From: a virus | DNA length: 51,999 bases | IMG/VR virus record: IMGVR_UViG_3300050821_003104 | Coordinates: 1 to 51,999 of that record | Strand: one strand, 5' to 3' | Shown: positions 1-51,999 of the stretch, piece after piece | Numbering within the stretch: the stretch's first letter is position 1 | Layout: every line of letters begins with the position of its first letter | Program-made: the position numbers and the translations under genes | Notes under the pieces: model-generated | Databases searched by the model: none | What the model saw: only the letters and a program-made list of their open reading frames with translations | What the model was told of the DNA's origin: nothing

Positions 1-98
1 CGGCAATCGCGGGCGTCGGCGGGGCGGTAGGTGCGGTCGTCATGTCTTAAAACTCCAATTGTTGGTTAATATCGAGGGGTAGATTAGAAGCGACTGAC
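1..98. repeat. Terminal direct repeat, left copy
   Basis: These 98 bases are identical to 51902-51999. The window is therefore a complete circle of 51,901 bp, or a linear genome with a 98-bp direct repeat. The repeat length is typical of a k-mer overlap left by an assembler, so a physical repeat is not proven. Bases 1-43 are the 5' end of the 159-residue leftward gene whose full copy is at 51465-51944; they are not a separate gene. Confidence 0.95.
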
Positions 99-2588: not shown

Positions 2589-4310
2589 ATGCTAAGAGAC
2601 TTTCAGCAAGAGCTAAAGGCCCGAACATACGAAGCATGGGCACGAGGCGCCCGTAACGTGATGGTCGTAACCGCTACAGGCGGCGGCAAAACGGTTTTAT
2701 TCTGCAACATCATTGCCGAGCTTGAACGCCCAACCGTTTCAATCAGCCATAGACAAGAGCTAGTCGGCCAAGCCGCGCTCGCCCTCAATCGCGAACAGGT
2801 GCCGCATGGAATCATTGCCCCCCAAGCTATCCAACGTCAGATTATTACCCTTGAACAAGAGATGCACGGCCGCAGCTTCTACAGCCCTCGCGCAGCCGTA
2901 CGCGTTGCCGGTGTCGATACTCTCATTGGGCACGACCCGGCCGACCCGTGGTTACGGCAAGTCGAATTGGTTGTACAAGACGAGGGCCACCACGTCGCCA
3001 ACGACAATAAATGGATGCGCGCCCAAGCGATGTTTCCCGCAGCGCGCGGGCTCCTCGTCACTGCCCACGCCATACGAGCCGACGGCCGCGGATTGGGCCG
3101 GCCACCAACGGGCGATGGTCTCGTTGACGAACTTATTGTTGGGCCGTGCGGCCGAAACTTAATTGACCGCGGGTTCCTGTGCGATTATCGATTGATCGCG
3201 CCCCCCTCTGGCATCCATGTCGAGGATATCGAAATCAGCGAGACGACCGGCGAGTACAACTACAAGAAAGTACGCGCCCGGGTGCATGCGTCCAAAACCA
3301 TTGTCGGCGATGTGGTCGAGCATTACATCAAGTTTGCCCGCGGCAAGCTCGGTATTACGTTCGCGGTCGATATCGAGGCCGCCACGGAAATCGCGGCGAA
3401 GTATCGCAGCGAAGGAATAAACGCGGAAATCATAACGGCCAAGACGCCGCTTGCAATCCGCGGTCAATTGATGCGTCAGTTTCGGCGCCGGCAAATCCTG
3501 CAACTCGTTTCGGTCGATGTACTCGGCGAGGGTGTGGACGTACCCGCCGTCGAGGTTGTGAGCATGGCGCGGCCGACGGCGTCGTTTCAGTTGTACGGCC
3601 AACAGTTCGGCCGCGCGCTGCGCCTCATGCTGACAGACGAACAAAACGCAACATGGAACGCTCGTAGCGACGCGCAGCGGCTAGCTGAGATTGCCACGAG
3701 TATCAAGCCCAAGGCCCTTATAATCGACCACGTCGAGAATTATGTGCGCCACGGGCTGCCCGATGTCGAGCGCTCGTATTCGCTCGCACGCGCCGAGCGC
3801 CGATCCCGCAAAAAGAAAAACGACGAGATACCCTTGCGTTACTGCGTCAATCCCGAATGCCTCGAACCGTATGAAATAACGCTGTCAGTTTGTCCGAACT
3901 GCGGAACGCCTCGGCCGCCGCCTGCAAAGCGCGGCAGCCCCGAGGAGGTAGACGGTAACTGTTTTGAACTCGACCCCGCGGTATTGCATGCCATGCGCGT
4001 CGAGCAAGCGAAGGTTGACGGGCCGGCGCGCGTGCCAGTCGGAGCGGCTGACGTGGTTGTCAAGTCGATACACAAGAACCACGCGCGCCGGCAGGATGCG
4101 CAACGCGAATTGCGCGAGGCAATGGGCCTGTGGGCCGGATGGCAGCACCACACGCTAGGACGCGATCCGGCCGAAGTGCAACGCCGATTTTTCTACAAGT
4201 TCGGGCGGGATGTCATGAGCGCGCAAGTTCTCGGCGCCGACGACGCTTGGCTGTTGCGGGCGGAAATCGCGCGCGACTTAGACGCCAACAACATCGTGGC
4301 GGCCACGTGA
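2589..4310 (+). CDS. SF2 DEAD/DEAH-type helicase with zinc ribbon
   Basis: A 573-residue superfamily 2 helicase. Motif I is ATGGGKT (29-35), motif II is DEGHH (131-135) in place of DEAH, and motif VI is QQFGRALR (338-345). A four-Cys zinc ribbon, CVNPEC (419-424) and CPNC (435-438), follows the second RecA fold, and then comes a helical tail. It would unwind or remodel DNA during phage replication or recombination. It is divergent from the replication operon and shares its control region; the stop overlaps the next gene as GTGA. Confidence 0.9.
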   Translation: MLRDFQQELKARTYEAWARGARNVMVVTATGGGKTVLFCNIIAELERPTVSISHRQELVGQAALALNREQVPHGIIAPQAIQRQIITLEQEMHGRSFYSPRAAVRVAGVDTLIGHDPADPWLRQVELVVQDEGHHVANDNKWMRAQAMFPAARGLLVTAHAIRADGRGLGRPPTGDGLVDELIVGPCGRNLIDRGFLCDYRLIAPPSGIHVEDIEISETTGEYNYKKVRARVHASKTIVGDVVEHYIKFARGKLGITFAVDIEAATEIAAKYRSEGINAEIITAKTPLAIRGQLMRQFRRRQILQLVSVDVLGEGVDVPAVEVVSMARPTASFQLYGQQFGRALRLMLTDEQNATWNARSDAQRLAEIATSIKPKALIIDHVENYVRHGLPDVERSYSLARAERRSRKKKNDEIPLRYCVNPECLEPYEITLSVCPNCGTPRPPPAKRGSPEEVDGNCFELDPAVLHAMRVEQAKVDGPARVPVGAADVVVKSIHKNHARRQDAQRELREAMGLWAGWQHHTLGRDPAEVQRRFFYKFGRDVMSAQVLGADDAWLLRAEIARDLDANNIVAAT

Positions 4311-4675
4311 ATCGAATCTATGTCAACATGGAACAGCGTCTAATCGTCAACTCGGTACTCGACTTAATAACCGGCTGTTGGGTTTGGATTGCCGCCCGAG
4401 ATAAAAGGGCCTCGACGCCATACGGCAAAATCAGCGTGCGCGTCCCGGGCCGCGATCGGCCGATTATGCGCCAAGCGCATCTCGTCAGTTACGAAACGTT
4501 CATTGGCCCCATACCCGAGGGCCACGAGATAGACCACACTTGCAGGTATGGGTTTTGCATTTGCCCGGATCATTTAGAGGCTGTGTTGCCGCTCGTCAAT
4601 AAGGATCGGCGAATATTTAAACACACGGCCAAAACAACCACGTACAGAGGAACAAGCGCCCATGCCCAAATTTAA
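4307..4675 (+). CDS. HNH endonuclease, homing-type fold
   Basis: A 122-residue HNH protein. It begins with GCWVWIAA, followed by a beta-rich DNA-contact region, and has the core HEIDHTC then CICPDHLE, with His and Cys residues suited to metal binding. This layout is that of free-standing phage HNH endonucleases. GTG at 4307 is chosen because it overlaps the helicase stop as GTGA; ATG at 4329 is an alternative. It may be a selfish element carried between helicase and VRR-NUC, or part of the replication set. Confidence 0.8.
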   Translation: MNRIYVNMEQRLIVNSVLDLITGCWVWIAARDKRASTPYGKISVRVPGRDRPIMRQAHLVSYETFIGPIPEGHEIDHTCRYGFCICPDHLEAVLPLVNKDRRIFKHTAKTTTYRGTSAHAQI

Positions 4676-4934
4676 AGTTTTCGCCTTTTGGTTCGCCGCC
4701 GAGTTTGTGCTGTACGGGCTCTTGGTCGCCAACGGCCGCGCCTATGTGCAAGCGAACTACGGGGCAACGCTCGTCACTGACATGACGATATCAGCCTTTA
4801 ATTTCTGGTTTGCCGTCAAGTTCATTGAGGGCAAGGATAACCGCACATGGCCCGCGCTCGCCGGCTGCGTCCTTGGCGGCGGCGCGGGTTCCCTATGCTC
4901 TATCGCGCTCACGAAATGGCTGTACGGCGCATGA
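4662..4934 (+). CDS. Small membrane protein, 90 residues
   Basis: A 90-residue protein with two or three predicted membrane segments (about 6-25, 42-54 and 64-88). GAGG lies 10 nt before the ATG. It overlaps the HNH gene by 14 bp and the VRR-NUC gene by 4 bp (ATGA), so it belongs to the same transcript. No enzyme motif is visible. Its place among replication nucleases rather than lysis genes argues against a simple holin. Confidence 0.75.
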   Translation: MPKFKVFAFWFAAEFVLYGLLVANGRAYVQANYGATLVTDMTISAFNFWFAVKFIEGKDNRTWPALAGCVLGGGAGSLCSIALTKWLYGA

Positions 4935-5314
4935 GCGCCAGCGAAAGCAATGTATCGAGCCGCACGCGATTGGCCGCCGTGGCGAAGCACTGGCGCCTAT
5001 GGCGCAACAATCGCGGCGCCGGCAAGCTCAAAAACGGAAACTTTGTACGGTGGGGCCTCGCGAACGATTCAAAGAAACTCGGCAACAAGCTCAAGTCCGC
5101 GGACTTGATCGGCTGGCGCCCCGTGATTATAACCCCGGACATGGTCGGCAAAGTTATCGCGCAATTCGTTTCTGTCGAGACCAAGGCCGAGGATTGGACG
5201 CCGCCGCCGCTCGATACCAAAGACGCCGACGCGGCTGCCCAATATCTTTGGGCCGACCTAGTCAACCGTGAGGGCGGCTACGCAGTATTTATCAACGATC
5301 CGACGAAGCTATAG
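4931..5314 (+). CDS. VRR-NUC nuclease
   Basis: A 127-residue PD-(D/E)XK nuclease of the VRR-NUC family, single-domain phage enzymes often encoded beside DUF2800, DUF2815 and polymerase A. The core is KSADLIGWRP (55-64), with the catalytic Asp in SADLIG, followed by the beta strand FVSVETK with E83 and K85. The start is in the ATGA overlap with the membrane-protein gene. It likely cuts flaps or branched structures during replication. Confidence 0.85.
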   Translation: MSASESNVSSRTRLAAVAKHWRLWRNNRGAGKLKNGNFVRWGLANDSKKLGNKLKSADLIGWRPVIITPDMVGKVIAQFVSVETKAEDWTPPPLDTKDADAAAQYLWADLVNREGGYAVFINDPTKL

Positions 5315-37722: not shown

Positions 37723-38656
37723 TACTTTCACCGTCAAAAATCTGCGGGTCACATTCACGTTGACCAACAGCAACGCCGTGTTCCCGGGAACAAACGGCGC
37801 AAATCAATTGACGCTGCAAGGGCTGCGCATGTCCGCAGTAATCAAGGGCTCGGGCCTCCCGGCATTCCCCGAGGCATCGTTGCGAATCTATGGCATGGCG
37901 CAAGCAGACATGAACGCGTTGGCTATTGTCCAAGTTCAGGGCGGCAAGCCCGAATACTCGCGCAACACTGTGCAGATTGAGGCCGATAGCGGCAACGGAT
38001 TTACGTTTGTATTCTCGGGGCAGATTTACCAGGCCGGCCCGGATTTCGAGAACTCCCCCGATGTATTTTTATTCGTTCATGCACAGTCGGCCGGGTTCGA
38101 CCAATTGACCGCGGCGAACCCGACGGCCTACCCGGGCACGGCCAACGTTGCCGACATCGTGGCAAATCTCGCGTCGAAAATGTCCATGGCGTTCGAGAAC
38201 GACGGCGTAACCGGCACGCTCACGAATGCGTATTACTCGGGCACGCTCGCCTCACAACTGCGCAAAGTGTGCCAAGACGCGAATATTTATTTCGCCATGG
38301 AAAACCAAAACTTGCTCGTCATATCACCGGCCGGCCAAGCGCGGCGGAACGTGCCGGCGTGGGTACTGACGCCAACGTCAGGTTTAGTAAATTATCCGCA
38401 GGTACTAGGAAATGGATACCTCAACGCTCGGTCAATTTTCAATCCCGCATTTCGGCAAAACGGGCCTGTAACGATTCAGGGCAGTATCGTTATGATTGAC
38501 CCGCTATTGCCCAAGACGCTCAACAGCCAAGCCGACGGCAATTGGCTCATTGGTCCGCTGACGCACACGCTCGAATGCCAGAAACCCGGCGGCGCGTGGT
38601 TCACCGATATGAAGCTGTACCCGCCGAATGCGCCGCCCGCCGAGGGCTCGCCATGA
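37712..38656 (+). CDS. Baseplate hub protein (gp27/gpD-like)
   Basis: A 314-residue protein. LRVTFTLTNSNAVF, QIEADSGNGFTFVFSGQIYQAGPDF, KVCQDANIYFAMENQNLLVISP and ARSIFNPAFRQNGPVTIQG follow the hub fold of contractile tails. It joins tube to spike. A copy of the second palindrome (37779-37792) lies near its start and encodes VFPGT. Confidence 0.85.
   Translation: MTSNTFTVKNLRVTFTLTNSNAVFPGTNGANQLTLQGLRMSAVIKGSGLPAFPEASLRIYGMAQADMNALAIVQVQGGKPEYSRNTVQIEADSGNGFTFVFSGQIYQAGPDFENSPDVFLFVHAQSAGFDQLTAANPTAYPGTANVADIVANLASKMSMAFENDGVTGTLTNAYYSGTLASQLRKVCQDANIYFAMENQNLLVISPAGQARRNVPAWVLTPTSGLVNYPQVLGNGYLNARSIFNPAFRQNGPVTIQGSIVMIDPLLPKTLNSQADGNWLIGPLTHTLECQKPGGAWFTDMKLYPPNAPPAEGSP
37779..37792. promoter_or_regulatory. 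Second palindrome family, intragenic copy
   Basis: TGTTCCCGGGAACA, perfect 14-bp palindrome, 67 bp into the hub gene. Confidence 0.5.
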
Positions 38657-40245
38657 ATCCGGCCGTTGGCCAATCCAACCCATTCAGCGACGCAAGCGAA
38701 TACAACTCGTTGGCTTTCATCATTGCGCGCGCGCTCGACGAAGTGCAAACCGTTTCGATTGCGCAGGTTAAAGCCGTGGATACCGACGCGCAAACGGTCG
38801 ATATTCTCGTGTTGGTCAACCTCGTGACCGGCGCAGGGATTCAAGTCCCGCACGGGGTTATCTCGGGGCGGCCGTACTTTCGAGCGCAGGGTGGCACGAG
38901 CGGAATTATCCTCGACCCGGCTGTTGATGATATAGGCATTGTCGTATTTGGCTCGCGGGATTTGACCGCGGTCATATCATCCAAAGGCATCGCTAACCCG
39001 GGCAGCCAACGCAAGTTTTCGTGGTCGGACGGTATCTACCTCGGCGGCGTGCTCAATACAACACCGACGCAATACCTACAGTTTACGACAGGCGGTATTA
39101 ATCTTGTTTCGCCTACGGCAATCACTCTTACGTCGCCTGACAACACTGTCAACGGCCCTTTGAATGTTACCGGACTTGCCACGTTTCAGGACGGCGGCGT
39201 AGTTGACGGTAACTTGATGGTCACTGCGACCGTGCTGGCATTGACGGTTTCAGCGACGAACGTGGATGCTACTAACCTTAATGTGTCCTCGGGAGGTTCC
39301 ATATCCTTTCCGGCCGGCAGCCTGCCTAACTCCGTACTCGCAGCGTCGGGGGTAACAGCCGGCAGCTACACGAATGCCAACATAACGGTTGACGCGGCAG
39401 GCGTTATTACGGCAGCCGCAAGCGGCACAGGGGGCGGCGGGACGCTGTCTATTACCGATGGTGTGCATACTGTGACGGGTGTTACAGGGCTGACTGTCTC
39501 GGGGGGCACGGTCGGAGGTTCAACGCCCAATGCAACACTTACAATTGCCGCGAGCGGCGGCACAGTTACTAATGTAAGCATTCACAACTCTGACGGAAAT
39601 CTAAGCGTCAGCGTGGCGACCCCTACCACTACGCCGGCCCTTGAGATTGATTTATCCTCAGCCTTTGCCGCCGCCCTCGCCGTAACGGCTGGATTGGCAG
39701 CAAGCGCCCTACAATCTATTTCGATTGCCACGGGCACGGGGTTGACGGGCGGCCCGCTCGGGGCCTCTGGTTCGACCGTGGCGTTAGGTAACACGGCAGT
39801 TACGGCGGGTACCTACGCAAATCCGATCGGCCTAACAGTGAACGCCCAAGGGCAAATAACGGCTATTGCTAGCGGCGGCGCATTTATGCCGGGCGCTTCG
39901 TGGGGCAGCGCCACGGGGTCGCCAATCACTCTAACCGGCATATTGCCCGTGCCCCGGCCTATTGGCGCCGCTTGCACAATCAAAGAGGTTTTGATACTGA
40001 CGACAGGCGGCACCGGTAGCTGTACAATCGCCATTTGGAAAGCCAACTTAAGCGCGCATTATCCGCCCGTCATTGGCGACGATATTACGGGAGGTGTGCC
40101 GCCCGCAATCTCGGCAGGGGTTACCTACCGCAATAGTACGCTGTCGGGTTGGACAACGACGATTGCCCAAGACGACGTTTTATATTTTACGCTGACAGCC
40201 ACGTCAACTTTTACGTCGGTGGCAATTTTCATAAGGTACGGATAA
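38653..40245 (+). CDS. Baseplate spike with fibre-like tail
   Basis: A 530-residue protein. Residues 1-130 (TVSIAQVKAVDTDAQTVDILVLVNL ... VISGRPYFRAQGG ... DPAVDDIGIVVFGSRD) are the OB-fold N-terminal domain of gp138/gpV-type membrane-piercing spikes. The long remainder is Ser/Thr/Gly/Ala-rich with repeated SGVTAGSYTNANITVDAAGVITAA-type units typical of trimeric fibres. Spike and fibre in one chain is uncommon. The ATG overlaps the hub stop. Confidence 0.82.
   Translation: MNPAVGQSNPFSDASEYNSLAFIIARALDEVQTVSIAQVKAVDTDAQTVDILVLVNLVTGAGIQVPHGVISGRPYFRAQGGTSGIILDPAVDDIGIVVFGSRDLTAVISSKGIANPGSQRKFSWSDGIYLGGVLNTTPTQYLQFTTGGINLVSPTAITLTSPDNTVNGPLNVTGLATFQDGGVVDGNLMVTATVLALTVSATNVDATNLNVSSGGSISFPAGSLPNSVLAASGVTAGSYTNANITVDAAGVITAAASGTGGGGTLSITDGVHTVTGVTGLTVSGGTVGGSTPNATLTIAASGGTVTNVSIHNSDGNLSVSVATPTTTPALEIDLSSAFAAALAVTAGLAASALQSISIATGTGLTGGPLGASGSTVALGNTAVTAGTYANPIGLTVNAQGQITAIASGGAFMPGASWGSATGSPITLTGILPVPRPIGAACTIKEVLILTTGGTGSCTIAIWKANLSAHYPPVIGDDITGGVPPAISAGVTYRNSTLSGWTTTIAQDDVLYFTLTATSTFTSVAIFIRYG
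39138..39151. promoter_or_regulatory. 14-bp palindrome, intragenic copy
   Basis: TGACAACACTGTCA has both half-sites intact, with a less typical centre, inside the spike gene. Confidence 0.45.
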
Positions 40246-40248
40246 GCC

Positions 40249-41196
40249 ATGGCGAATACTGCAACAACCAATACACCGTGTTCCATGCTCAATAGCGCGG
40301 GCTTCCAAGCGTGGATAACCGAGATGACAACGGAACTTACGGCCGTTGGTCTCACGCAAACGGCGGACACGGGACAAATCAATCCGGCCACGGTCGCATT
40401 GCCCGGCGCCATCAATACGGTTGCGGGTTACCAAATTTGGCGATTCAATGACACGCTACAAGCGACAAGCCCTATTTTCTTAAAGCTCGAATACGGGACC
40501 GGGGGTAGCATAACCTCGGTCCCGAATATTATTCTTAGCATTGGGCAAGGATCAAACGGCTCGGGAACTTTAACCGGCACAGTCACCACTCGCGCGTCGT
40601 GTACGGGTGGTAACGCGCTTAACAGTGCGGTTGCAAATGCGCCGTCTTTTTGGGTCTATAACCCGACGTATGGCGTACTTGCATGCGGGTGGAAATTCGG
40701 TATCAATAGCTCCAACGTTGTGTCAACGGTTCCGATGGCCGGGTTCATTATTGAGCGATCGTGCGACACGAACGGCAACGCCACGGGGGACGCTGCTATT
40801 GTTGTAACGCCTAGCATTTCATCGACCGGCAGCGCGATCGTAGGCGCGTGCGCTCAGATATTCTCATACTTGACCTCGGCGCTCACAACCCCGGCAACGC
40901 CGACCGCCGCGCTCAATGCGTGGTCGACTTTTTGGCCTATGAATCCGGCAAGTTCCGCCGTTGGGTCGAACAATCAAGTAATGCCGCGTTTTCATTTGAC
41001 GCCTAATATTCAATTGAGCGGCACTAGCGGCGTGTGTCTCGCGTCAGAGTTTTCAATGGCTTCGACATTCGCGGCGGCGCTTATAGGGACGACATCGAAA
41101 ACATATATAGCGCTCGGTAATTTTGTCGGCATCACACAGAATCAACTTGCTCAAACAGGCGGGCAACCCGTAGCAGGATATGTACTGTGGCAATAA
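40249..41196 (+). CDS. Fibre or baseplate protein, 315 residues
   Basis: A 315-residue protein, beta-rich and Ser/Thr/Asn-rich with FWVYNPTYGVLACGWKFGI and AGFIIERSCDTNGNATG. It lies between spike and wedge genes, where myophages often carry accessory tip or fibre proteins. I cannot name a family. Confidence 0.7.
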   Translation: MANTATTNTPCSMLNSAGFQAWITEMTTELTAVGLTQTADTGQINPATVALPGAINTVAGYQIWRFNDTLQATSPIFLKLEYGTGGSITSVPNIILSIGQGSNGSGTLTGTVTTRASCTGGNALNSAVANAPSFWVYNPTYGVLACGWKFGINSSNVVSTVPMAGFIIERSCDTNGNATGDAAIVVTPSISSTGSAIVGACAQIFSYLTSALTTPATPTAALNAWSTFWPMNPASSAVGSNNQVMPRFHLTPNIQLSGTSGVCLASEFSMASTFAAALIGTTSKTYIALGNFVGITQNQLAQTGGQPVAGYVLWQ

Positions 41197-41366
41197 TCTC
41201 GAATCCGCCGAAATATTTTAGTAGTACGGGGCAAGCGAATTGCCAGGCGCCAATCGTAGCGCTTACAAGCGGTCACCCTGTTATTATTCCTTCGGGCCGA
41301 GTTGTCGTTGGATATCACACTAACCCACTCGTCACGCCTGCCAACGCCGTAGGGTCGCCCGTATGA
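41187..41366 (+). CDS. Small baseplate-region protein, 59 residues
   Basis: A 59-residue protein that fills the space between the fibre and wedge genes. The GTG at 41187 has AGGA 9 nt upstream and overlaps the previous gene by 10 bp; the stop overlaps the next start as ATGA. Beta-rich C terminus (HPVIIPSGRVVVGYHTN). The function is unknown. Confidence 0.62.
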   Translation: MAIISNPPKYFSSTGQANCQAPIVALTSGHPVIIPSGRVVVGYHTNPLVTPANAVGSPV

Positions 41367-41731
41367 GCGCGCCATTCACGACACTTTTGCTCGACGTTGG
41401 GACTTGGGACTTAGTCCTAGACGCCTATGGTAATATGGCCCTTGCTGCGGCTCCGTATGCGCTTGCGCAGGATGTGGCGAGCGCGTGCCGAACTGTGCTT
41501 GGCGAGGTTTATTATGACGTGCTATTGGGCGTCGATTACTTCGGGCAGATTTTCGGCCTCACTCCGCCCGCGACCGTGTTCCAAGAACAGTTCGTTGCGC
41601 AGGCTGAGCTTGTTCCGGGCGTCGTCACTGCGACGTGCATTATTGAATCCTACTCGGCAGTGACCCGCGGGGCGACGGGCCAAATTCAGTTTATCGATAT
41701 CAATCACATTTCGCAGACAGTAGGCTTTTGA
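41363..41731 (+). CDS. Baseplate wedge protein (gp25-like)
   Basis: A 122-residue protein. WDLVLDAYGNMALAAAPYALAQDVASACRTVLGEVYYD and GVVTATCIIESYSA match the small gp25/gpW-like wedge protein that precedes the J protein. It docks the sheath onto the baseplate. Confidence 0.82.
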   Translation: MSAPFTTLLLDVGTWDLVLDAYGNMALAAAPYALAQDVASACRTVLGEVYYDVLLGVDYFGQIFGLTPPATVFQEQFVAQAELVPGVVTATCIIESYSAVTRGATGQIQFIDINHISQTVGF

Positions 41732-41732
41732 C

Positions 41733-42995
41733 ATGGCAAACACGACCAACGTACCCGCCCCTGAATTCACGCCGACCGGGCTTGTACTGCCGCAAGAGGC
41801 CGCGATTCTCGCCGGCATACAACAAGATTACAATGCGGCGTTCGGGGGCAATCTCAATCCTCAGTTGACGACGCCGCAAGGGCAACTGTGCTCCTCGACG
41901 ACGGCAATAGTTGCGAATGCAAATACCGTTTTCGCCACGTTTGTCAACCAAGTAGACCCCGATACCGCGACCGGGTTTATGCAAGATGCTATAGGCCGTA
42001 TTTATTTCTTGAATCGAAATCCTGCTATTCCTACTTCGGCCAATTTGCAATGCGTCGGTGCGTTCGGTACCCCGATACCCGTAGGCGCGCTCGCGCAAGA
42101 TACGAGCGGCAATATTTATTCATGTACCCAAGCGGGCGTTATACCCGTGGGAGGTTCGGTTACGTTGGCATTCGCTAATGTCATCGCCGGCCCGACGGCC
42201 TGTCCCGCGAACACGGTTACAAAAATATACCAAGGCATCAACGGTTGGGAGTCGGTCAACAATTCCTCGCCCGGCACGATTGGCGCCAATGTGGAGTCAC
42301 CCGCCGCGTTTGAGTTTCGCCGTCAAAATTCTGTAGGCAAGAACGCACAGGGTTCGATTCCTGCCATTTTCGCGGCATGTTTTACTGTTCCAAATGTCAT
42401 TGACGTATTCGTTACCCAAAACAACACGGGCTCGGTTATCTCAGGTGGCATCAATGGCAACCCGAACTCAACGGGCTACCCGGTCGCGGCACATTCGGTA
42501 TACGTGGCTGTGACCGGCGGAGCCGCGCAGGCCGTAGCTAATGCCATATGGGCGGCTACGAACATCGGAGCGGCATATCAGACGGCAACGGGTAGCGCAG
42601 GCGCGTCGCTTGTCTCAGAGACGGTAACGGACAACAGCGGATACAACATCCCGGTACCGGCGTATACGGTAAATTTTATTAATCCCGCATCAACGCCGGT
42701 ATTCTTTGCGGTCACGCTTGCGGCGTCTGCCTTGTTGCCGGCCAATATCGTAACCCTCGTGCAACAAGCCGTCATTGCGCAATTCACGGGGCAATCGCAA
42801 GGCAGCTTACGCGAACGCATAGGCGCTCAGATATTGGCGTCTCGGTACTTCGGCCCTGTTCAATCGATCGGTAACGAAGTCTCGATACTAACGATTACGA
42901 TTGGTTTCAATTCGTCGGTTGGCAGCGCTTCGCTGCAAATGGGCATTGATCAAGAACCAACTATTTCGATGGCCAACATTGCGGTAATAACATGA
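41733..42995 (+). CDS. Baseplate J-like protein
   Basis: A 420-residue wedge protein of the baseplate J/gp47 family. It shows the DPDTATGFMQDAIGRIYFLNR N-terminal block, ESPAAFEFRRQNSVGKNAQGS, and the Ig-like C-terminal half with HSVYVAVTGGAAQAVANAIW. It builds the wedges around the hub. The stop overlaps the next start. Confidence 0.9.
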   Translation: MANTTNVPAPEFTPTGLVLPQEAAILAGIQQDYNAAFGGNLNPQLTTPQGQLCSSTTAIVANANTVFATFVNQVDPDTATGFMQDAIGRIYFLNRNPAIPTSANLQCVGAFGTPIPVGALAQDTSGNIYSCTQAGVIPVGGSVTLAFANVIAGPTACPANTVTKIYQGINGWESVNNSSPGTIGANVESPAAFEFRRQNSVGKNAQGSIPAIFAACFTVPNVIDVFVTQNNTGSVISGGINGNPNSTGYPVAAHSVYVAVTGGAAQAVANAIWAATNIGAAYQTATGSAGASLVSETVTDNSGYNIPVPAYTVNFINPASTPVFFAVTLAASALLPANIVTLVQQAVIAQFTGQSQGSLRERIGAQILASRYFGPVQSIGNEVSILTITIGFNSSVGSASLQMGIDQEPTISMANIAVIT

Positions 42996-45106
42996 GTTGC
43001 GATCCGAACTTTGCCGACGTAAGTCTATTGCTTCATTGCGACGGGACGAACGGCAGCACGTCGTTTCCTGATTCGTCGGCGAACGCTTTTGCAATGACGC
43101 CGTCGGGAGTGACGGTTGATACGTCAGCCCCTGAGTTTGGCACAGGCGCCGCAAATTTCGGTAGTTCGTTTAATTCCAATACGATAACAACGCCGATTAC
43201 TGGGGGCGGCCCGCTTGACATGCAGGCCGGCGATTTCACCGTCGAAGGTTGGGTAAAACTCGATTCAAGTGCGGTTAGCTGCTTACTCGTGTCGAGCAAT
43301 ACGACCGGCGCCATTCATGGCGGGTTTGAAGTTTCGGCAAACATCGGCGGCACAATAGACATAGGTATTTCCTTAGTCATAGCCGGGACACGATACGCAG
43401 TAGGAACAACCGCAATTACCGCGACGCCGGGCGTGTGGTATTCGTGGGCGGCAGTGCGCCAAGGAACGGAGGCAATGGCGTTTTTAAATGGCGTTGCTAG
43501 CCTTCCTGTAACGATACCCGTAGGCGCAATTACAAGTGACACGCATATTGTAGTGGGCGGCGTTGGTGGCCTCGGTTCAAGCATCGTCGGCGAAATGGAT
43601 GAAATCCGCATTACAAAGGGGCTTGCGCGATATACCGGCAATTACACGCCGGCCGGCCCGTTCGGCGGAACATGCGCCGTTACCGTACCCAATGTTGTCG
43701 GTGAAGTCCTCGCAACGGCGGAATCAGATATTACGGCGGCGCTCTTGACTGTAGGTACTGTCACGACCGGAAATAGCCCGACAATTCCAGCCGGCAGCGT
43801 AGTAAGTCAATCGCCAATTGCAGGCGCAATTGCAATGCAGGGCGACCCCGTATCCCTTGTGAATTCGCTAGGACCGGCGCCTGTCGCAGTTCCTAATGTT
43901 GTTGGCTTGTCCCTCGCTGACGCCTCGGCGACTTTGCTTACGGTCGGATTTTTCACGGGTACAGTTACTCTCGCGACGAGTCTTACGGTTCCTGTCGGCG
44001 ATATCATTAGCCAATCGCCGACGGCGGGAACTTTCGAGACACCAGGCACAAATGTCGATTTGGTCGAATCCGAAGGGCCTAGCGCGCTTTTGGTTCCTGA
44101 CTTGACAAACTTGTCAGTGCCAGTAGCCGAAGCCCTACTAACGTCTATAGGGCTTGTTCTTGGTATTGTTTCAGAACAACCCGACGCAATTATTATAAAG
44201 GGCAACATCGACGCGCAGGGTACCGCGGCCGGCACGCCAGCTTCACCGGGCGACGCGGTCAACGTGACGATTTCTTCGGGGCTGCCGTCTCTTCTCGTCC
44301 CCGATCTATTCGGGCTGACACAATCGGACGCAGTCACGTTGCTGCAATCGCTCGGCCTCGTGGTTGGGGCAATCGGTACGGCGCCGTCAACCTTTCTGCC
44401 ACCCGGCGAAGTCGAAACCCAAAACCCAAGCGCGGGCACGCCCGTTGCTGCGGGCTCTATCGTTAGCTTTGTCCTAGCGATTGCGCCGCCCGCCGTTGGT
44501 ACTCTGTTCGACGTTGAGGCAACTGTCATTTCGCAATATGCGAACTCGCCGACGTTGTTGCAACTTGTCGCCAACATGAACCAATACGTTGACCAATCGG
44601 CCAACATGGCAAATTTCTATAACTACGTTTGGAATATTGACTCGGCTGTCGGTTTTGGCCTCGACATATGGGGCAAGATTGTAAACGTGTCGCGCTTGCT
44701 GCAAATCCCGAACACAACCGATTATGTCGGGTTCGACAACAGCGCGACGCCGCCGCCCGACTGGCAAACCATGGGCAGCACGCAAACAGTTGGTGGTCCC
44801 GTCGGTGGCGCCATGTACACGGGGCAGAATGCAACGACCGCGTATTTGTTACCTGACGACGCTTACCGGCAATTGATTCTAGCTAAAGCGTTCGCGAATA
44901 TTTGCACCACGACCGCGCCAGCCATCAATCAGATTTTGCAAAACCTGTACGGGCCGGGCACAGCATGGGTACTCAACACGGGACCGATGGCCATTTCATA
45001 CAATCTATCGTTCACGCCAACCGCGATTCAGCTTGCAATTCTAGAGCAATCGGGCGTGATTCCCACGCCGCCCGGCGTTTCTGTTACCATAAATACCGGC
45101 GTCTAG
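42992..45106 (+). CDS. Baseplate protein: LamG-like, four PASTA repeats, DUF2612
   Basis: A 704-residue chimera. Residues 1-225 form a concanavalin/LamG-like lectin domain (VSLLLHCDG ... DFTVEGWVKL ... GEMDEIRITKGLARY). Four PASTA-like repeats of about 68 residues start near 231, 299, 368 and 436, each opening VPNVVG or VPDL and carrying V-x-SQSP-x-AG. The last 200 residues are DUF2612, the wedge protein that follows J (QYANSPTLLQLVANMNQYVDQS ... GFGLDIWGKIVNVSR). PASTA domains bind cell-wall muropeptides elsewhere; here they probably help surface binding. Confidence 0.85.
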   Translation: MSCDPNFADVSLLLHCDGTNGSTSFPDSSANAFAMTPSGVTVDTSAPEFGTGAANFGSSFNSNTITTPITGGGPLDMQAGDFTVEGWVKLDSSAVSCLLVSSNTTGAIHGGFEVSANIGGTIDIGISLVIAGTRYAVGTTAITATPGVWYSWAAVRQGTEAMAFLNGVASLPVTIPVGAITSDTHIVVGGVGGLGSSIVGEMDEIRITKGLARYTGNYTPAGPFGGTCAVTVPNVVGEVLATAESDITAALLTVGTVTTGNSPTIPAGSVVSQSPIAGAIAMQGDPVSLVNSLGPAPVAVPNVVGLSLADASATLLTVGFFTGTVTLATSLTVPVGDIISQSPTAGTFETPGTNVDLVESEGPSALLVPDLTNLSVPVAEALLTSIGLVLGIVSEQPDAIIIKGNIDAQGTAAGTPASPGDAVNVTISSGLPSLLVPDLFGLTQSDAVTLLQSLGLVVGAIGTAPSTFLPPGEVETQNPSAGTPVAAGSIVSFVLAIAPPAVGTLFDVEATVISQYANSPTLLQLVANMNQYVDQSANMANFYNYVWNIDSAVGFGLDIWGKIVNVSRLLQIPNTTDYVGFDNSATPPPDWQTMGSTQTVGGPVGGAMYTGQNATTAYLLPDDAYRQLILAKAFANICTTTAPAINQILQNLYGPGTAWVLNTGPMAISYNLSFTPTAIQLAILEQSGVIPTPPGVSVTINTGV
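44103..44116. promoter_or_regulatory. 14-bp palindrome, intragenic copy
   Basis: TGACAAACTTGTCA lies at the start of the third PASTA repeat. It may be partly a coding coincidence (DLTNLSV). Confidence 0.4.
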
Positions 45107-45122: not shown

Positions 45123-46292
45123 ATGGCGAGCACGTTAGTTACCCCGTTGTTGATTTCTGAGCCGTTCGGCAGCGGCGCGGCCAACCCGACGTACATAAAC
45201 TTGCCGATTCCCGTGCCGTCGCAGATTTCCACGACGGTCAACGCGGCCTCGTTCACAGATGGGTTCCCGCCTTCGACCATGACCCCCGAGGCGTCGGGCG
45301 GCCTGCCGTTCTTTGGGCAGGATATGAACGGTATTCTGTGGATGATTTCGGCATACTGCGCGAACTTCGCCGCGGGCGCACTGTCGCCTTATAATGCGAC
45401 ATTGTCCGGGTTGATTTCAGGGTATCCGGTTGGCGTCGTCCTCGTGAATGCCGACGGCAATGGCCTATGGGTCAATCAAGTTTCGGGCAACACGACCGAC
45501 CCCGATACGGGCGGCGCGGGTTGGATGCCAACTGCCGGCGTTGGCGGGTTGAGTCTTACGGTTACTGGCAGTTCAAATGTTACCTTGACCGCGCTGCAAG
45601 CTGCGTTGCCCTTTATCTCGTTCGGCGGCGCGCTGTCTGGAAATATCAATGTCATATTTCCAGCGAACGAAGGACAGAGTTGGATTCTATCGAATGTCAC
45701 GTCGGGTGCGTTCACGATTACCGCCAAGACTGCGAGCGGCACAGGGGTCGTGATTCCCGCAACGGGACTTGCCGCCCCCACGTCCGTCTATTGTGACGGG
45801 ACGAATATTCAAAATACGGGCATATCAACGGCCGGCCTCGCGCCGATCAATTCGCCTGCCCTGACGGGTACGCCGACGGCGCCGACCGCGGCAGCCTCGA
45901 CCAATACAACGCAGATTGCCACGACGGCCATGGTACAGGCCGCGATTACGGTCGCGCTGTCCCTATACGCGCGTCTCGCCTCGCCCACGTTCTCGGGTAC
46001 GCCGGCCGCTCCGACCGCGGCGCAAGGTACGAATACCGCGCAGATTGCAACAACGGCGTTTGTGACGACGGCTGCGCCCGACTACCGCGCCGGTAATTTT
46101 ACGTGCGTGAATGGAACGGTTACGGTGACGTTCTCGACGCCTTTGGCATTCGTGCCGATTGTCATGGTGCAATGGGCCTATACGTCGCCGGATACAGGTT
46201 TCATAGTTCCCGGCAGTATCACAACGAACGGATTTCAATACACCAACGGGAATAGCGGCACGTGCGGCTATCATGCGGTGAAACCACGATGA
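45123..46292 (+). CDS. Tail fibre protein
   Basis: A 389-residue fibre. The N terminus (ISEPFGSGAANPTYINLP ... GLPFFGQDMNGILWMISAYCANFAAG) is the baseplate-attachment region common in tail fibres. Two TGTPTAPTAA...TNTTQIATTA-type repeats follow, and the end (NGTVTVTFSTPLAFVPIVMVQWAY) resembles gp53-like receptor-binding tips. It likely determines host range. Confidence 0.85.
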   Translation: MASTLVTPLLISEPFGSGAANPTYINLPIPVPSQISTTVNAASFTDGFPPSTMTPEASGGLPFFGQDMNGILWMISAYCANFAAGALSPYNATLSGLISGYPVGVVLVNADGNGLWVNQVSGNTTDPDTGGAGWMPTAGVGGLSLTVTGSSNVTLTALQAALPFISFGGALSGNINVIFPANEGQSWILSNVTSGAFTITAKTASGTGVVIPATGLAAPTSVYCDGTNIQNTGISTAGLAPINSPALTGTPTAPTAAASTNTTQIATTAMVQAAITVALSLYARLASPTFSGTPAAPTAAQGTNTAQIATTAFVTTAAPDYRAGNFTCVNGTVTVTFSTPLAFVPIVMVQWAYTSPDTGFIVPGSITTNGFQYTNGNSGTCGYHAVKPR

Positions 46293-47269: not shown

Positions 47270-47455
47270 ATGCATTTCATCGATTGGTACATAGCGTTAC
47301 ACGTCGGCATCGCTGAGCTTGCGTTGCTGACGTTGGCGTTTATGCACCCGCAACCCGAGATTGTCGGCGCCGTCTGTGTAGCACTGCCGGCAATACTCGG
47401 GTTGTATCACTGGTTCACCATTCGCGACGCAAAAACCCCGGACGCCCAACCATGA
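47270..47455 (+). CDS. Probable holin, 61 residues
   Basis: A 61-residue protein with two membrane segments (about 7-25 and 31-48) and a charged C terminus, the size and topology of small holins. It starts directly after the previous stop and overlaps the spanin gene by 4 bp. The assignment rests on position and topology only. Confidence 0.6.
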   Translation: MHFIDWYIALHVGIAELALLTLAFMHPQPEIVGAVCVALPAILGLYHWFTIRDAKTPDAQP

Positions 47456-47964
47456 CAGCCCTACTTAAGTTGATACCCGGTTCAGATATTTTCTACGCCA
47501 CGGTAATCGGCCTACTCTTGATTGTCGGCGGCGGTGCGTGGGTTCACCACGACCACGTCGAGCAAGCCAAAGGCGCGGCCGTTGTCGTGGCGCAGGATAC
47601 GAAACTTGCTACTGTGACCGAACAGCGCGACGCCGCGTTGGCCTCGAATGCATCTCATGATTTAGACGAAATTGGAGTGACTTACCATGCAAAAATTACT
47701 CTACCCGCTGTTGCTGATACTGGCATCGTGTGCCGCAACGCCGCCGTGCCGGCCATACGCGGTACAACTGCCACCGCCTCCGACAGTAGACCCGGCACTA
47801 ATGCAGGCCCCGTGTTACCAAGCCGAGGGGACTTTGACCCTAGCGGGCCAACCCTTACAGCCTTGCAGCACGCTGACGACCAAGTAACGGGCCTTGAGGC
47901 AACCGTCGCGCGGCTCGAAAAGTACATTGCTGATTTGCAAGCCGCGAGCGCTAAGCCTCCCTAG
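47452..47964 (+). CDS. Inner-membrane spanin (Rz-like)
   Basis: A 170-residue protein with one N-terminal membrane anchor (about 14-34), then a charged helical periplasmic region, ending in QHADDQVTGLEATVARLEKYIADL. It carries a complete Rz1-type lipoprotein gene in another frame, as in lambda Rz/Rz1. The pair fuses inner and outer membranes in the last lysis step. It converges on the DNA polymerase gene with a 4-bp overlap. Confidence 0.85.
   Translation: MTALLKLIPGSDIFYATVIGLLLIVGGGAWVHHDHVEQAKGAAVVVAQDTKLATVTEQRDAALASNASHDLDEIGVTYHAKITLPAVADTGIVCRNAAVPAIRGTTATASDSRPGTNAGPVLPSRGDFDPSGPTLTALQHADDQVTGLEATVARLEKYIADLQAASAKPP
47687..47887 (+). CDS. Outer-membrane spanin (Rz1-like lipoprotein), nested
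   Basis: A 66-residue lipoprotein wholly inside the Rz-like gene in another frame. The signal MQKLLYPLLLILASC has a lipobox LASC with the acylated Cys at 15; the mature part is Pro-rich. GGAGTG lies 9-10 nt before the ATG. The nested arrangement and lipobox make this a confident call and imply an outer membrane in the host. Confidence 0.88.
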   Translation: MQKLLYPLLLILASCAATPPCRPYAVQLPPPPTVDPALMQAPCYQAEGTLTLAGQPLQPCSTLTTK

Positions 47965-51464: not shown

Positions 51465-51944
51465 TTACATCGATTCCGTTGGCGTTGCCGGCACGTTCGT
51501 CGGCAATGTCTCGGCAGTCGCGTCGGGTGCGAGCGCGGCGGCCGTCACTTCGATAGCTTCGGCCGGGGGCATTACCAATTCTTGCGCGGGGTCAACTACG
51601 CCAATCGGGGCGGGCGTTGCATCCTTTGCTGTCTCGTCGTTCGCGCTCGGGGCCGGGGGCTCTTTCTGCGGCGGCGCGGGCAACGGGGGCGTGCCGTACG
51701 TCAACACGTGCTTAATGACCCACATGGCGGCCTCGTCGATTCGTTGGTGCGCGAATTCGAGATGCTTGGTAAGCAGTGCGCGGCCTTCCAAATCCTTGTG
51801 TTCGAGCGTCCGCACGTACTCGTGCAGCGAATTGAACACAGCCCCAATCTGTGAGGCGGCAACTTGGCGCTCGGGCGTAATCGTCTGTTGGCCCGCAGTA
51901 GCGGCAATCGCGGGCGTCGGCGGGGCGGTAGGTGCGGTCGTCAT
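51465..51944 (-). CDS. Pro/Ala-rich replication-operon protein, 159 residues
   Basis: A 159-residue protein. The middle (QVAASQIGAVFNSLHEYVRTLEHKDLEGRALLTKHLEFAHQRIDEAAMWVIKHVL, 27-82) is helical and resembles small helical proteins seen beside phage SSB genes; both tails are Pro/Ala/Thr-rich and probably disordered. Its ATG lies 3 bp after the endonuclease VII stop across the circle junction, proving that the operon is continuous. The function is unknown. Confidence 0.72.
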   Translation of the reverse strand: MTTAPTAPPTPAIAATAGQQTITPERQVAASQIGAVFNSLHEYVRTLEHKDLEGRALLTKHLEFAHQRIDEAAMWVIKHVLTYGTPPLPAPPQKEPPAPSANDETAKDATPAPIGVVDPAQELVMPPAEAIEVTAAALAPDATAETLPTNVPATPTESM

Positions 51945-51999
51945 GTCTTAAAACTCCAATTGTTGGTTAATATCGAGGGGTAGATTAGAAGCGACTGAC
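51902..51999. repeat. Terminal direct repeat, right copy
   Basis: Identical to bases 1-98. Joining the two copies places the 159-residue gene directly behind the endonuclease VII gene. Confidence 0.95.

Follow-up and report, generated by a model that had tools for sequence, protein, structure and literature searches.

Analysis of the window, by which is meant the whole stretch of viral DNA examined (51,999 nucleotides), identified an intact open reading frame on the + strand (42992-45106) whose 704-residue product comprises a LamG/concanavalin A (ConA)-like lectin domain, four PASTA repeats and a complete DUF2612 domain, and which is probably a baseplate wedge protein of the gpI/XM1 gp17 type carrying at its N-terminal side a fused, stalked and lectin-tipped receptor-binding arm, six to each baseplate. 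Host recognition in contractile phages usually falls to separate fibres or spikes that dock on the wedge; in this protein the recognition modules appear instead to be joined covalently to the wedge, carried by a stalk taken over from a repeat of cell-wall sensors. An exact direct terminal repeat of 98 bases (window 1-98 = 51902-51999) indicated that the virus record probably represents a whole genome, about 51.9 kb long. The relevant locus, in which the gene order is gp25-like, J, DUF2612 wedge and tail fibre, contains the following features:

41363-41731, + strand: gp25-like baseplate wedge / sheath initiator gene (PHROG 120, E = 1.8e-21)
41733-42995, + strand: baseplate J (gp6-like) gene, coding for the partner of the wedge protein (Pfam Baseplate_J, 7.4e-10; PHROG 6, E = 3.6e-50)
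42992-43681, + strand: head, LamG / ConA-like lectin, residues 1-230 (Pfam Laminin_G_3, E = 2.1e-11; AlphaFold2; fold search)
43682-43885, + strand: PASTA repeat 1, residues 231-298 (family HMM i-E 5.6e-27; Pfam PASTA; model partly of low confidence)
43886-44089, + strand: PASTA repeat 2, residues 299-366 (family HMM i-E 5.8e-29; model of low confidence up to 330)
44090-44293, + strand: PASTA repeat 3, residues 367-434 (family HMM i-E 4.2e-28; pLDDT >90 over most, alpha plus three beta)
44294-44497, + strand: PASTA repeat 4, residues 435-502, abutting the wedge domain (family HMM i-E 1.4e-27; Pfam 436-495; pLDDT >90)
44504-45106, + strand: DUF2612 baseplate wedge domain (gpI-type), residues 505-704 (Pfam, E = 3.6e-50; PHROG 587, E = 5.7e-58; profile matches to XM1 gp17 and Pam3 gp23)
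45123-46292, + strand: separate tail fibre gene, directly 3' of the wedge gene (PHROG 12796 tail fiber, E = 8.2e-47)

Pfam searches located DUF2612 at residues 508-699, PASTA in four stretches (E = 1.1e-40) and Laminin_G_3 at residues 76-208, all three matches being far above the curated cut-offs; no kinase or transpeptidase match was recorded on the same chain. An HMM built from the family repeats resolved the PASTA region into four contiguous repeats of exactly 68 residues with zero spacers, and returned no PASTA match in the other open reading frames of the window. Taken with structure prediction, these data bore out the layout of lectin, four PASTA repeats and DUF2612 given in a preliminary description of this DNA, and placed its domain limits (1-230, 231-504 and 505-704) correctly to within 2-3 residues. 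The annotated start is right, since the N-terminal MSCDPNF recurs in contigs L002 and L003, and the ATG of the wedge gene overlaps the J stop codon (ATGA). Identity between the repeats is only 28-44% as protein and 41-48% as DNA, and they are thus old copies rather than the outcome of a recent or assembly duplication.

The DUF2612 match was full length (profile positions 1-180 of 181). Searches with phmmer linked the domain to Pam3 gp23 (1.3e-6) and XM1 gp17 (2.1e-5), and profile matches to wedge proteins of solved baseplates were obtained with XM1 gp17 (9.5e-17), Pam3 gp23 (1.5e-5) and gp46 'Baseplate wedge 2': by these sequence comparisons the domain is a gpI-type baseplate wedge domain, its identity as a wedge having been proposed earlier and being upheld by the DUF2612 and PHROG 587 assignments, the XM1 and Pam3 matches and the gene order. 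XM1 gp17, Pam3 gp23 and MMNM_26 have the same domain at full length and in the same order after gp25-like and J genes (PMC10457771, PMC11633184), and the J-then-wedge order is common to Bcep1, phiAO1, Orisa03 and a Helicobacter prophage, with wedge proteins of 191-242 residues as annotated. However, XM1 gp17 (242 residues) and Pam3 gp23 (238 residues) lack any N-terminal extension, whereas some 500 residues are fused in front of the window domain. In an AlphaFold2 model of the 704-residue protein, based on 39 aligned sequences, the DUF2612 domain was moderately confident, the helices at 508-516, 520-532 and 538-547, where the N-terminal hairpin of the core bundle would lie, being predicted at pLDDT about 45-65.

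No match covering the whole protein was found in 50,697 phage records. A survey of DUF2612 proteins in IMG/VR established that the insertion recurs but is uncommon, rather than a singleton: 30 of the 143 distinct proteins examined, a sample ordered by similarity to the window and whose ratio is therefore not a frequency, carry one to four PASTA repeats directly before DUF2612 (confirmed by Pfam). All 30 came from metagenomic viral contigs, and the repeats were always either between a head and DUF2612 or N-terminal; PASTA was absent from all 45 of the bacterial-genome loci searched. The window falls in a well-supported clade of 17 members, every one of which has PASTA and none of which has the C-terminal tail considered below. 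A single origin of the fusion was not supported, the tree requiring about six gains or losses, at least four of them on well-supported branches. Two phage-labelled records, L008 (MT836719.1) and L009 (OR847152.1), were discarded as phage PASTA relatives because they encode complete Ser/Thr kinases with PASTA and are probably bacterial DNA contamination, while long 'N-terminal extensions' in L064, L067, L070, L072 and L074, and likewise in L097, L103, L121 and L080, proved to be open frames overlapping the J gene and not real extensions.

The literature search found no paper joining PASTA with phage baseplates, although an automatically annotated 'PASTA_pknB domain' protein exists in an uncultured phage. 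Wedge proteins that include receptor-binding parts are a known kind, whereas the literature searched yielded no description of gpI bearing exchangeable heads on a PASTA stalk.

The head was modelled as a beta jelly-roll with pLDDT about 90 over most of residues 1-90, the lectin being largely confident; it aligned with ConA-like lectin domains such as domain 4 of arabinanase AbnA (VIA Z 18.6-19.0), and in BFVD matched LamG proteins of other phages. Clostridial toxin binding domains also ranked high in the fold search by virtue of the common ConA-like jelly-roll, and a toxin relation was rejected (identity 9-16% in most matches). LamG-type heads occur as well in cyanophage structural proteins (S-SKS1, ACG-2014f 'baseplate wedge initiator'), some of them annotated as wedge, but unlike the window protein none of those among the hits listed was a PASTA-DUF2612 protein.

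Across the family, the regions before PASTA form several groups, namely LamG, beta-propeller and at least two more without any Pfam match; the propeller heads gave weak Pfam matches of the BNR/Vps10 type, and their AlphaFold2 model (pTM 0.81) had propellers as its top PDB matches. Identity declines from base to tip, so that the window and L002 share 85% over DUF2612, 63% over the last PASTA repeat and 42% over the head, with corresponding values of 96%, 78% and 22% for L013 and L157, and 95%, 75% and 27% for L137 and L138. In both of the latter pairs, DNA identity of about 80% was maintained across J as far as the wedge start codon, the head and the greater part of PASTA 1 gave no alignment, and similarity then resumed. 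Head replacement on near-identical wedge domains has the look of cassette exchange at a receptor-binding tip, for which the junction of head and stalk would be a natural site, and the retention of the stalk while the head is swapped suggests a built-in exchangeable arm. The earlier proposal that the chain presents surface-binding arms from the baseplate gains support from this wholesale replacement, the binding itself being predicted. The stalk is not always tipped, since L030, L026 and L151 have PASTA with almost no head, a point against reading the extension as an arm.

When the complete model was compared with the PDB, PASTA regions ranked first, namely those of PknB and of S. aureus PrkC (6.9e-12 for PrkC), and repeats 3 and 4 were predicted at pLDDT >90 with the PASTA order of a helix and three strands, so that structure prediction agreed with the assignment of residues 231-504 to PASTA folds. 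Residues 266-330, in the region of repeats 1 and 2, were mostly at pLDDT <40, a consequence of the few aligned sequences with four repeats, and the support for these two repeats is the sequence profile. In sequence, fold and linear array the repeats resemble the extracellular PASTA regions of PrkC and PknB, but the window protein is without a kinase, without a membrane anchor and almost without basic residues: residues 231-502 (272 in all) contain one Lys and no Arg, compared with 31 Lys plus Arg for S. aureus PrkC (198 residues), and the family average for phage PASTA repeats was 0.73 Lys plus Arg per 100 residues versus 3.5 in the DUF2612 domains of the same proteins.

The type of host bears on the role of these repeats. 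Two nested genes of the window are described from sequence features:

47452-47964: 170-residue protein with an N-terminal membrane segment
47687-47887: 66-residue proline-rich lipoprotein with a LASC lipobox, nested in 47452-47964 in another frame

Their arrangement resembles that of Rz/Rz1 spanins. The earlier attribution of Gram-negative type spanins is thus supported by sequence features, the membrane segment and the nested LASC lipoprotein, neither product having given a PHROG match. Together with the nested lipoprotein gene, the isolated phages most closely related in their J and DNA polymerase genes, which infect Gram-negative hosts, indicate that the host is probably Gram-negative.

The window protein also differs from ordinary members of the family at its C-terminus. 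Its DUF2612 domain ends 8 residues past a conserved PPGV, as opposed to 26-63 in most members without PASTA, and it lacks the tail of about 25 residues, with a FGF...PF..G.F motif, that ordinary members possess. In XM1, where each wedge contains one gp17 and two gp16, gp17 has an N-terminal hairpin in the core bundle, and the spikes dock on its loop 80-106 and C-terminus 201-242 (PMC10457771). Alignment with XM1 gp17 mapped the missing tail to this spike-holding region; the spikes of XM1 are proteins in their own right, attached to its wedge at an internal loop and at the C-terminus, whereas the window wedge has no C-terminal docking tail. The tail was absent from 31 of the 143 members (20 of the 30 with PASTA versus 11 of the 113 others) and so is not defining for DUF2612 in practice. 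A tie between gain of the arm and loss of the tail was not upheld, the independent changes being few and a sign test not significant; that the fused arm may have replaced a docked spike is accordingly put forward only as a hypothesis.

If the favoured reading is correct, the C-terminal DUF2612 would build into the (J)2-I wedge, the four PASTA repeats would form a straight, inert, monomeric stalk, and the lectin-fold N-terminal head would serve as an exchangeable tip contacting a host-surface glycan. Given a single gpI in every wedge, each baseplate would carry six of these arms, pointing outward, as we infer, beside the separate tail fibres, and head binding would help adsorption or trigger contraction. 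A monomeric phage arm is consistent with the PASTA arrays of the kinases, which are straight and in vitro showed no dimerisation (PMC3601408). Precedent for an arm is provided by the docking of XM1 spikes on gp17 and by gp075 of Pseudomonas phage K8, a DUF2612 wedge protein able to join receptor recognition, mutants of which bind the LPS core (PMC9887876); gp075 nevertheless differs from the window protein in having 243 residues and neither lectin nor PASTA, its binding arising from point mutations or small duplications. A point against an arm is the position of the N-terminus of XM1 gp17 within the core bundle, from which an N-terminal arm would need an exit path.

An unlikely alternative would have the extension serve assembly or attachment, the head and PASTA repeats holding a separate tail fibre or stabilising the baseplate rim. 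The role of the XM1 wedge protein as the docking place of spikes, the tail fibre gene directly 3' of the wedge gene, and the loss from the window wedge of the tail matching the XM1 spike-docking region would all suit such a part, yet a docking part should match its partner, whereas unrelated heads are swapped on near-identical wedges within flanking DNA of about 80% identity, and 10 of the 30 PASTA members retain the C-terminal tail. That the fusion is an artefact of assembly or gene calling, or a decayed gene, is extremely improbable, and on the sequence evidence already refuted: the lack of such a fusion in isolated phages was the one observation found in its favour, and independent contigs from many metagenomes carry the same fusion with the frame intact and the start conserved, in addition to which the wedge gene is ATGA-coupled to J.

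Slightly less likely than an attachment role is one in which PASTA binds peptidoglycan or its precursors, the lectin making first contact and the baseplate anchoring after breach of the outer membrane. The peptidoglycan of a Gram-negative cell is covered, rather than exposed, at adsorption, which counts against this role given the apparent host type. The phage repeats are PASTA in both sequence and fold, and PASTA is a muropeptide/LipidII-binding module in PknB and PrkC (PMC6428115, PMC3601408); however, PrkC recognises DAP via Arg500 (PMC3601408) and the ligand residues of PknB are Ser556/Lys557/Asn559/Gln560 (PMC6428115). Judged by composition, the window repeats would lack ligand residues such as Arg500 of PrkC, and the near absence of Lys and Arg means that the known contacts are probably missing and PrkC-like muropeptide binding is unlikely. 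The hint in the preliminary description that PASTA binds muropeptides here was therefore not sustained, there being almost no basic residues to set against the arginine contact of PrkC, and the peptidoglycan of a Gram-negative host being covered. A repeat number that drifts from one to four is a further objection, and together with the low Lys and Arg content and the probable host type favours a passive stalk.

The receptor-binding arm may also be placed in a broader scheme, to which we would give rather less than even weight: uncultivated phages, probably of Gram-negative type, would use PASTA as a gpI stalk of adjustable length bearing six arms with swappable heads, and in the clade of the window the arms would replace the C-terminal tail on which spikes dock, coupling host binding directly to the wedge from which contraction starts. 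If true, the protein would offer a simple system for asking how receptor contact passes to the sheath, and an instance of PASTA serving as a scaffold instead of a peptidoglycan reader.

A number of further observations were made on related loci. Achromobacter-type prophage DUF2612 proteins in L057 (3140-4663), L090 (3170-4663) and L100 (4149-5645) have N-terminal extensions of about 280 residues, the ends of which are constant and the middle variable; like the window protein they are extended by a variable N-terminal region, but one without PASTA, and so provide this wedge protein with another type of variable arm. A 315-residue protein coded 5' of the gp25-like gene (window 40249-41196) has a homologue of 32% identity in L151 (2767-3654), which sits between J and the wedge gene and shows that the module has moved. 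The 567-residue product of window 38542-40245, the C-terminal 90 residues of which match PHROG 35197, is possibly a second tip-bearing tail protein. In L003, two fibre-like open reading frames between J and the wedge gene (2942-4537 and 4408-4986) have TNVLKSAGGGGGGAPVTPGGASGTVQYNNAGSFGG in common, which looks like the duplication of a module whose copies differ in their C-terminal parts.
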